From Siphonodentalium dalli (taxonomy: Eukaryota > Mollusca > Scaphopoda > Gadilida > Siphonodentaliidae): a stretch of DNA of 64,000 bases. Below, piece after piece: positions 5,786 to 7,959 of this stretch. The position numbers and the translations under genes are program-made. The stretch is from contig CP136065.1 of assembly GCA_032622095.1 (NCBI GenBank), positions 27,289,141 to 27,353,140 of the forward strand, read 5' to 3'. Under the pieces are notes generated by a model. That model saw nothing but the letters and a program-made list of their open reading frames with translations, searched no databases and was not told where the DNA came from. Positions within the stretch are counted from its first letter, which is position 1. Every line of letters starts with the position of its first letter.

Positions 5786-6878
5786 TAAGCAGAGAATACA
5801 TTGGCCTAGCAATATTTACCTTGACCTTGTAAGCCAGTGTATTCTCTTATATATGCGAGTCTCCCATATGGAGCATCGCATAAATAAGAGAATATTGGCC
5901 TAACAATATTTACCTTGACCTTGCATGTAAGCCAGTGTGTTCTCTTATATATGCGAGTCTCCCATATGGAGCATCGCATAAATAAGAGAATATTGGCCTA
6001 ACAATATTTACCTTGACCATGTAAGCCAGTGCCTTCTCTTATATATGCGAGTCTCCCATATGGAGCATCGCATAAATAAGAGAATATTGGCCTAACAATA
6101 TTTACCTTGACCATGTAAGCCAGTGTATTCTCTTATATATGCGAGTCTCCCATATGGAGCATCGCATAAATAAGAGAATACATTGGCCTAACAATATTTA
6201 CCTTGACCGTGCATGTAAGCCAGTGTGTTCTCTTATATATGCGAGTCTCCCATATGGAGCATCGCATAAATAAGAGAATATCGGCCTAACAATATTTACC
6301 TTGACCACGTAAGCCAGTGCGTTCTCTTATATATGCGAGTCTCCAATATGGAGCATCGCATAAATAAGAGAATATTGGCCTAACAATATTTACCTTGACC
6401 ATGTAAGCCAGTGCCTTCTCTTATAAATGCGAGTATCCCATATGGAGCAACGCATAAATAAGAGAATATTGGCCTAACAATATTTACCTTGACCATGTAA
6501 GCCAGTGTGTTCTCTTATATATGCGAGTCTCCCATATGGAGCATCGCATAAATAAGAGAATATTGGCCTAACAATATTTACCTTGACCATGTAAGCCAGT
6601 GTGTTCTCTTATATATGCGAGTCTCCCATATGGAGCAACGCATAAATAAAAGAATATTGGCCTAACAATATTTACCTTGACCTTGCATGTAAGCCAGTGC
6701 GTTCTCTTATATATGCGAGTCTCCCATATGGAGCATCGCATAAATAAGAGAATATTGGCCTAACAATATTTACCTTGACCATGTAAGTCAGTGTGTTCTC
6801 TTATAAATGCGAGTCTCCCATATGGAGAATCGCATAAATAAGATAATACATTGGCCTAACAGTATTTACCTTGACCAT
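5786..6878. repeat. tandem array of MITE-derived hairpins (about 11 units, 92-101 bp)
   Basis: Each unit contains a hairpin (TTCTCTTATATATGCGAG ... CTCCCATATGGAG ... CGCATAAATAAGAGAA) and a spacer, GGCCTAACAATATTTACC then TTGACCATGTAAGCCAGTG. Complete units begin near 5841, 5940, 6034, 6128, 6229, 6322, 6416, 6510, 6604, 6702 and 6796. Length differences come mostly from an optional TGCATG in the spacer. The same hairpin-spacer-hairpin order exists once, dispersed, at 21670-21819, so the array is probably a tandem expansion of that MITE type. Confidence 0.93.
6854..6878. repeat. 25-bp target-site duplication, left copy
   Basis: GCCTAACAGTATTTACC followed by TTGACCAT, identical to 7898-7922. 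Both carry a G (AACAGTATT) where most of the other array spacers have A, which supports duplication during insertion of the LINE rather than ordinary array repeats. Confidence 0.85.
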
Positions 6879-7323
6879 TGAAATAGACCCGAGGCACCAA
6901 GTGCAACTGTCGCAGTTCGCTGATGACTTGGGTCTGTGGATCACCAATGGCAGTACAAAACATGTGGACCATGCAACGAGTTAATCTTCTCAGACGGCTG
7001 AGGGGAACTTCATCGGGAGCTAGCATGGCCACTCTGCTTAGAGTCTTCAAAACGTTTGTAAGACCTATCATGGAATACGCATCGGTGGTCAGCAACCTGG
7101 CATCAAATCGCGCGATCCAAATGCTCCAGGTGGTCCAAAACAAAGCCCTGAGAATGGCACTGCAAGCACCGTATCACACTCGTATTGTAGATCTGCATAC
7201 CATCGCTGATATGGAACCCATCAGAGAGCGCCTGCGCAATCTGGCGGAAAGTACACTGGCGAGAATGGACGGCAGTGACATCATGAGGGAGTGTTTACAA
7301 CGCAAACAGCTTCCCTGTGGCTG
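6879..7323 (+). pseudogene. LINE ORF2 reverse transcriptase fragment, Jockey/CR1-like
   Basis: The first frame reads EIDPRHQVQLSQFADDLGLW, containing the catalytic F-A-D-D box of LINE reverse transcriptases. The reading then shifts to VNLLRRLRGTSSGASMATLL, and further on VRPIMEYAS, LQVVQNKALRMALQAPYHT and ADMEPIRERLRNLAESTLARM, the post-palm thumb and linker region. Roughly 100 residues normally found between the FADD box and the thumb are missing, so the copy has an internal deletion besides its 5' truncation. The stop is at about 7322. RT activity would copy the element RNA at the nick. This copy cannot encode a working enzyme. Confidence 0.85.
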
Positions 7324-7324
7324 A

Positions 7325-7620
7325 AAAGACCCGCAGTTCAATGTGGTTATTGGACCGTCCCGGGTTTTAGGATACGCAGTCAAGCAGGCTATGCTAGACC
7401 GTCCCGTATCCCGCTTCAGAAAAGACCTGCAGTCCAATAAGGTGTATTGGACCGTCCCGGGCGGTAACAGAAGAGAACACGCAGTCCAGTGGAATCACTG
7501 GACCGTCAGGTACTCTCTTAGCAGCCCGCAATCCAATGCCTCCATTGGAAGGTCCCGGGCGTGGACAACCAACTGAAAATGCGCAATCCAGCATCATCGC
7601 TGGATCGTCCCGCATTTTTC
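7325..7620 (+). ncRNA. six tandem two-stem hairpins with conserved CA/CGUCC internal loop (LINE 3' region)
   Basis: Six successive units fold the same way: a variable outer stem, a 5' CA facing a 3' CGTCC internal loop, an inner stem of 7-8 bp and a 4-6 nt apical loop. Inner stems are at 7336-7342/7349-7355, 7379-7386/7392-7399, 7432-7439/7445-7452, 7484-7491/7496-7503, 7532-7538/7543-7549 and 7586-7592/7599-7605. Outer stems differ completely in sequence yet stay paired, for example GGATACG/CGTATCC in unit 2, GCCCG/CGGGC in unit 5 and AAAATGCG/CGCATTTT in unit 6. Deviations: unit 1 has a GU pair and one bulge, unit 2 an A-A mismatch, unit 4 CGTCA with interrupted outer pairing, unit 5 GGTCC. 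Such compensatory change implies selection on RNA (or cruciform) structure. Function unknown; binding by the element's own RT or ORF1 is a guess. Confidence 0.75.
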
Positions 7621-7897
7621 AAGATGCCGAGACAAGGCAAATATCAAGGCAAAGGTCAAGGCAAAAGTACAAGGCAAAGACAAAAGACCAAGTGAAGATA
7701 CAAGACAAGACAAGATTCAAGACACCTACGACGCTGACCGATCCCGACCTCAAGACTTCTCCACCCGATCCGCGGCCTGACTTTCGAAGATACATTACCA
7801 AAGAAGATTCAAGACAGGGCGTAAGGGCGACCTCCGGGCGAGCCCACCACCGTCCTCGTGCCGCCCTTCGGGCGGGCACGCAAATCCTGTTCCTGCT

Positions 7898-7959
7898 GCC
7901 TAACAGTATTTACCTTGACCATGTAAGCCAGTGCGTCCTCTTATAAATGCGAGTCTCCC
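7898..7959. repeat. right target-site duplication plus remnant of the hairpin array
   Basis: 7898-7922 repeats the 25-bp duplication. 7923-7959 continues the array unit as far as GCGAGTCTCCC, where it breaks into the right direct repeat. This shows the LINE landed inside the array. Confidence 0.85.

Follow-up and report, generated by a model that had tools for sequence, protein, structure and literature searches.

A row of two-stem hairpins follows ORF2 in a LINE copy

We identified six tandem two-stem hairpins with a nearly constant internal loop in the 3' region of a LINE copy and consider it somewhat probable that they form a multivalent RNA element, under selection in one LINE lineage, whose stems pair and whose loop is read by a putative protein (the ORF1 protein, ORF1p, as the first candidate and a host factor as the second). 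The copy occupies positions 6872-7899 of the window, the 64,000-nt stretch of Siphonodentalium dalli DNA analyzed here. Sequence alignment with a sister copy (L002) revealed a 5' truncation and an internal deletion relative to that copy and an identity of 93% over 6966-7899, and it placed the LINE 3' end at about 7899. The TGA at 7322-7324 closes ORF2, and the arm of the first hairpin begins directly 3' of this stop codon (Table 1). The C-terminus of ORF2 (...MRECLQRKQLLCG-stop, as read in copy L009) is presumably Jockey-like. In another sister copy (L011), ORF2 matched PF14529 (9.2e-20), PF03372 (3.2e-17) and PF00078 (1.4e-37), that is, endonuclease (APE-type) and RT domains, and ORF1 had CX2CX4HX4C (CCHC) motifs recognizable by eye. 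Type I ORF1 in the Jockey superfamily carries an RRM and, after it, CCHC zinc knuckles; in a Pfam comparison of three ORF1 pieces, RRM had no match and all CCHC-type matches stayed under the Pfam cut-offs (best E 0.00049). The A-rich linker downstream of the hairpins contains a tandem repeat (7633-7679). A satellite array with a 94-bp repeat (5791-6878) surrounds the LINE copy, and, by eye, similar sequence appears again after position 7900.

Table 1. Features of the LINE copy and its hairpin array (window positions)
Feature	Position	Strand	Basis
LINE ORF2 3' end, C-terminal part of the RT protein	6966-7324	+	homology to L002
Hairpin unit 1, type A	7328-7366	+	cmsearch, 50.4 bits
Hairpin unit 2, type B, inner stem with an A/A mismatch	7371-7410	+	cmsearch, 52.6 bits
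Hairpin unit 3, type A	7424-7463	+	cmsearch, 45.8 bits
Hairpin unit 4, type B, loop here CGTCA	7476-7514	+	cmsearch, 38.0 bits
Hairpin unit 5, type A, loop GGTCC	7523-7561	+	cmsearch, 44.4 bits
Hairpin unit 6, type B	7578-7616	+	cmsearch, 53.5 bits
A-rich linker, CAAGGCAAAG-type (CAAGG-type), length varying from copy to copy	7620-7725	+	alignment of copies
LINE 3' tail, conserved	7726-7899	+	homology to L002, which stops at 7899
Terminal 3' hairpin, 22 nt, unlike the array units, likely RT-recognition hairpin	7858-7879	+	five sister copies

The first-pass annotation of the window had described six tandem two-stem hairpins, and a covariance model confirmed them. Built from the six units of L002 rather than from those of the window, the model matched all six window units (E 1.2e-6 to 2.7e-10) and gave in the 64 kb only three other matches, all of them weak, antisense echoes of the same six units. 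A scan with strict rules (inner stem perfect over at least 6 and outer stem over at least 4, CA / NGTCC loop) recovered three of the six window units. It had no match in the rest of the window, whichever the strand, or in 2000 dinucleotide shuffles. The folding energy of the 316-nt region that holds the array (7315-7630, + strand) had a z score of -4.3 and was below that of all 100 shuffles; the reverse complement of the same region folded more stably than the sense strand (z of -5.9 vs. -4.3) and was also below all 100 shuffles. Among the six L002 units, pairing holds in 92.4% of the stem cells, and two-sided changes are seen in 13 cells, compared with 5.0 in shuffles. Sliding the partner strand of these units by 1 to 3 columns lowered pairing to 17-41%, and the number of further pair types was not raised (10 vs. 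10.7 in shuffles).

Successive units in the window are spaced by 43, 53, 52, 47 and 55 nt and belong to two types that, by eye, alternate in the order ABABAB. Type A has the outer stem CCCG/CGGG and the inner stem CCAATA/TATTGG; type B has (A)TACG/CGTA(T) or relatives as the outer stem and CCAG(N)/..CTGG as the inner one. The alternation may stop neighboring arms from pairing with each other. The internal loop had been described as an invariant CA/CGUCC, which holds for most units and fails in unit 4 (CGUCA) and unit 5 (GGUCC); the CGUCA variant is private to this copy among 30 aligned copies and the GGUCC variant is common to them. The related claim that both stems vary applies to the outer stem and the upper inner pairs and not to the lower inner pairs (UCCA/UGGA), which are nearly fixed. 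When the six window units are folded to minimum energy, each of them pairs the first C of CA with the G of (C/G)GUCC. This leaves a three-base UCC bulge in units 1, 2, 5 and 6 and a shifted bulge in units 3 and 4, which bear copy-private changes. Because of this pairing, an alternative drawing of the loop has an A.C mismatch and a UCC bulge of 3 nt.

Conservation of the loop core and pairing of the stems

To describe the units beyond the window we used a main set of 91 distinct units (of 97, from 21 loci) and a wider set of 127 distinct units (of 134, from 36 loci). The contrast between a constant loop and changing stems was borne out in the 91 units, with a mean conservation of 97% for CA and 95% for GUCC vs. 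62% for the upper inner and 59% for the distal outer pairs; the adjoining outer pairs (91%), lower inner stem (86%) and apical loop (51%) complete the profile. The C-G pair between the first C of CA and the G of CGUCC is intact in 81 of these units, and the A of CA faces C in 71, G in 14 and U in 4. Stem cells pair in 87.7% of cases in the main set (78.3% when shuffled) and in 87.3% in the wider set (78.7% when shuffled), and cells with two-sided changes number 167 vs. 72 and 220 vs. 100, respectively, in shuffles that ignore relatedness and alignments that were fitted to the model.

The co-variation proposed for the stems stands as a comparison between units, in which two-sided changes exceed those in shuffles; over the phylogenetic background it is weak and reaches one pair at best. 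For the latter we used our own R-scape-like test, which corrects for the tree by reassigning substitutions to random columns. With 91 units, one of 741 column pairs, a stem pair, reached E 0.03. With 127 units, none did so among all column pairs, and testing the stem pairs only retrieved one of 13 (E 0.003). The 127-unit tree contained 6 kept double changes for 2.3 expected (12 of 400 simulations were as high), and its 119 pair breaks were not clearly lower than the 129.7 of the null (59 of 400 simulations were as low). Because tree-corrected covariation is weak, the term co-varying rests mainly on the between-unit comparison, where it largely tracks the split into two unit types. This split, together with noise from dead copies, may blunt the tree-corrected test.

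We also separated inherited changes, on internal branches, from the mostly post-insertion changes on terminal ones, using 56 distinct arrays (76 before removing duplicates) and one tree with one random resolution of ties. The 36 sites of the loop core had 1 internal and 17 terminal substitutions, compared with 43 and 101 in the 91 sites of linkers and apical loops (Fisher p 0.027; p 0.052 for the loop core against all other sites). Expressed per site, internal-branch substitutions were 0.028 in the loop core, 0.42 in the apical loops and 0.51 in the linkers, and the core was relaxed on terminal branches. Pair-breaking events were likewise rarer among the inherited changes (13 of 31 internal vs. 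81 of 122 terminal pair events, p 0.022), in counts that leave out 6 internal and 6 terminal changes between unpaired states. Two double changes were kept on internal branches, one from A-T to G-C in unit 3 and one from G-C to A-T in unit 4. The inner stem contains more G.U than A.C appositions (102 vs. 36, or 61 vs. 35 without the first pair, which holds 41 G.U), as expected from selection on the sense RNA. Counter to a clean sense-RNA reading are the outer stem, where A.C outnumbers G.U (74 vs. 36), and the better folding of the minus strand.

Distribution of the array across the genome

In the 2.2-Gb genome (2.23 Gb in 9 contigs searched), a two-arm pattern of the hairpin had 169 exact matches (86 + 83) and its reversed control had none. 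The placement in a LINE 3' region given by the first-pass annotation was examined with a query that consisted of the last 72 nt of ORF2 alone and hence had no bias towards hairpins. Among the best 40 of 120 candidates, at least one unit lay downstream of all 40 ORF2-end matches and at least two lay downstream of 37, as judged by retrieving and scanning 10 loci (L219-L228, all with at least two units) and from adjoining array or pattern matches in the other 30. A single pattern match is known at the remaining three (C5:239156663, C5:215050822 and C3:227374804). The annotation had named full-length copies without hairpins as evidence against its reading; none of these 40 loci, which are close relatives by construction, lacked a unit. 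Some arrays are damaged: unit 3 is interrupted in L226, some of the array is lost in L227 and the first unit of L228 is shortened. These broken or lost units and the variation in unit number count against reading the array as a selected element.

DNA searches with older arrays identified diverged relatives that carry the same hairpin and are about 66-80% identical in most aligned pieces. A joint scan of 36 loci yielded 134 units at E 0.006 or better, with 1 to 7 units per locus passing the model. By eye, the end of ORF2 is recognizable before the array in L229, L231, L235, L238, L240, L248, L249, L250 and L253. In some of these relatives about 100 nt separate the stop codon from the array and a B unit comes first; thus, an array directly after the stop codon is not general. 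Where the ORF2 end is in view and decayed units are counted, arrays of the relatives have, by eye, from about 5 to about 15 units in which the two types again alternate, with about 10 in L231 and about 15 in L235 and its continuation L252, five hybrid units included. The hybrid units, also seen by eye, lie head to tail at about 60-360 of L252 and join a type A 5' arm to a type B 3' arm, which indicates that arrays can expand and mix arms.

We searched for units in the 1.4 kb downstream of the RT domain at five other RT loci of the same genome and found none there. These controls, presumably other LINEs, came from a PF00078 search in which the best 150 of 38730 candidates were scored; the reading frame of one (L257) breaks early, so its true 3' region possibly falls outside the 1.4 kb. 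Outside the genome, the two-arm pattern matched 20 stretches of viral contigs and at least 118 stretches of prokaryotic genome contigs, one match in each. Both are about the numbers expected by chance in a rough estimate from 17 fixed bases and 11 gap lengths, and we rejected these stretches as relatives. A tblastn search of the viral contigs for a relative of the RT part of ORF2 gave none. By eye, two loci (L236 and L241) have in common the non-LINE sequence before and after the LINE 3' end; this LINE tail is therefore seemingly carried within another repeat. In L063, an unrelated element is inserted in ORF2 (about 783-1246) and has 1196 candidate matches, some of them spaced by about 1.35 kb. 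Matches to L063:880-1370 (40 listed) were dropped as relatives, because most of that query is the inserted element.

Comparison with known RNA elements

Structured LINE 3' UTRs are already known. A search of the open-access literature, with subscription journals outside its scope, returned no description of a tandem array of internal-loop hairpins in a LINE 3' UTR, which is weak evidence of absence. Rfam 15 had no match at the gathering threshold in the window, none at E 10 or better in 7300-7920 and none at E 1 or better over 10 array-bearing loci. The units resemble the twister-sister-like ribozymes of human LINE-1 and OR4K15 in having two stems and a conserved asymmetric internal loop with CA, yet the ribozyme loops have 5 and 6 nt (PMC11620745, in excerpt). 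Their core strands at the C-A cleavage site, GCUCA(A/U) and GC(U/A)AG in letters that we inferred in part from the residues named in that excerpt, are missing from the sense strand of the array: GCTCA and GCAAG are absent in 7325-7619, and GCTAG occurs once (7393, inner stem of unit 2) without GCTCA. By these inferred loop letters we rejected a ribozyme of this type. One copy (L011) has a 157-aa reading frame that stays open through some of the array. A coding function was dismissed as well, since the unit spacings are not multiples of three and the 157-aa product has no Pfam match.

Candidate readers of the array

A near-constant loop, stems that pair, repetition and persistence during LINE diversification are together the pattern expected of a multivalent protein-binding RNA. 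In a LINE lineage whose ORF1 has putative zinc knuckles and whose ORF2 has endonuclease and RT domains, each unit would present the same docking surface, composed of the outer stem, the A.C mismatch with the UCC bulge and the inner stem. The stems would serve as spacers that need only to pair, the loop would be the part that is read and several units in a row would provide many binding sites on one RNA. The data show the array, its conservation and variable copy number, its linkage to this LINE and signs of selection on loop and pairing. We infer that a protein binds, which one it may be and with what effect: the reader would be a protein whose presence on its RNA the element requires, preferably the ORF1 (gag-like) protein, which would nucleate the RNP in cis, or else a host export or localization factor. 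Retroviruses and RNA phages have multi-hairpin export or packaging signals (RRE, CTE, MS2-type), which are similar in carrying several protein-binding hairpins or loops per RNA, the binder being putative in our case. We propose ORF1p as the reader tentatively; a role in binding the transcript has been suggested for RRM and CCHC domains of ORF1 (PMC4120745, in excerpt). It is equally a possibility that we hold loosely that this LINE lineage has a dedicated, repeated packaging signal, a row of hairpins with the same loop and varying stems that is distinct from the RT-recognition hairpin and bound cooperatively by its own ORF1p.

It has long been asked how the proteins of a LINE find the RNA of their own element (cis-preference), and the signals known to us are of two kinds, 3' hairpins and poly(A) tails. 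If the packaging reading is true, cis-preference would be encoded in the RNA by the copy number of docking hairpins. If the reader is instead a host factor, the array would offer a clue to the export or germline placement of unspliced LINE RNA. With its near-fixed loop, varying stems and natural copy-number variants, the array is a ready test object for separating binding from folding.

A host factor is, in our judgment, a rather unlikely reader. On this explanation the hairpins would be recognized by host RNA export or localization machinery, in the manner of retroviral transport elements and of Egl/BicD localization hairpins, and would take the unspliced LINE RNA to a site from which it can pass to the offspring. 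That the loop core is kept in relatives whose arrays are about 66-80% identical in aligned pieces could be explained by a host binder that changes slowly, but localization hairpins are not known to form tandem arrays with a fixed loop, and this counts against the explanation. There is precedent in Egl, which directly recognizes localization signals in the grk, hairy, K10 and I-element RNAs (PMC6114517, in excerpt). The I-element and gurken hairpins (Egl/BicD) and the HeT-A 3' UTR hairpin are comparable as hairpins of germline-moved LINE RNAs, but the excerpted text does not describe tandem rows of them that share a fixed asymmetric loop, and mutation of the HeT-A hairpin left HeT-A localization unaffected, indicating an Egl-Gag interaction instead (PMC6114517). 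Still less probable is a passive minisatellite, a functionless palindromic repeat spread by tandem duplication and slippage in which conserved bases reflect recent common descent. The two alternating unit types, the one array expanded by five hybrid units (L252), the variable unit number and the weak tree-corrected covariation are what such a repeat would produce. Arguing against it are the uneven spread of substitutions, fewest in the loop core on internal branches and relaxed on terminal ones, the pairing retained in 87% of cells even when old, diverged units are counted, and the persistence of the array over several LINE families.

The first-pass annotation had named recruitment of the RT, recruitment of ORF1p and packaging as possible roles. 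The first would make the array part of the target that ORF2p recognizes to start target-primed reverse transcription, and we regard it as improbable. Stringent LINEs require a 3' stem-loop recognized by ORF2p (PMC4176376, in excerpt), and the presence of at least one unit in the 3' region of all 40 ORF2-end loci (best 40 of 120 candidates) fits such a requirement. UnaL2, ZfL2-1 and ZfL2-2 likewise have a structured hairpin in the LINE 3' UTR with an unpaired part that is conserved; theirs, however, is a 3'-tail stem-loop read by ORF2p (PMC4176376, in excerpt), whereas the present LINE has both a terminal hairpin and, upstream of it, a row of units. A single stem-loop near the 3' end, as in stringent LINEs, is found at 7858-7879 and does not describe the array. 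Five sister copies have this terminal hairpin at a distance of about 20 nt from the 3' end, and variants of it occur in the relatives L236, L239 and L241; it contains a one-base bulge in the five copies and L241 and an internal loop in the L236 and L239 variants. Its pattern matched 8 of 17 loci (five main-family copies plus three relatives) and none of the other nine, at some of which, by eye, the retrieved stretch ends earlier or the sequence has decayed. LINE RTs reportedly bind near the 3' end (PMC4176376, in excerpt), which is where this separate hairpin lies, and for this reason RT recruitment seems the least likely of the three roles. The near-constancy of the array loop between families also argues against it, since the loop-reading region varies between LINEs of the L2 clade according to the same excerpt. 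In L007 (2027-2047; the same in L011), the terminal hairpin has given way to 21 nt that repeat the unit 2 region in inverted orientation, a replacement that resembles the outcome of a template switch.
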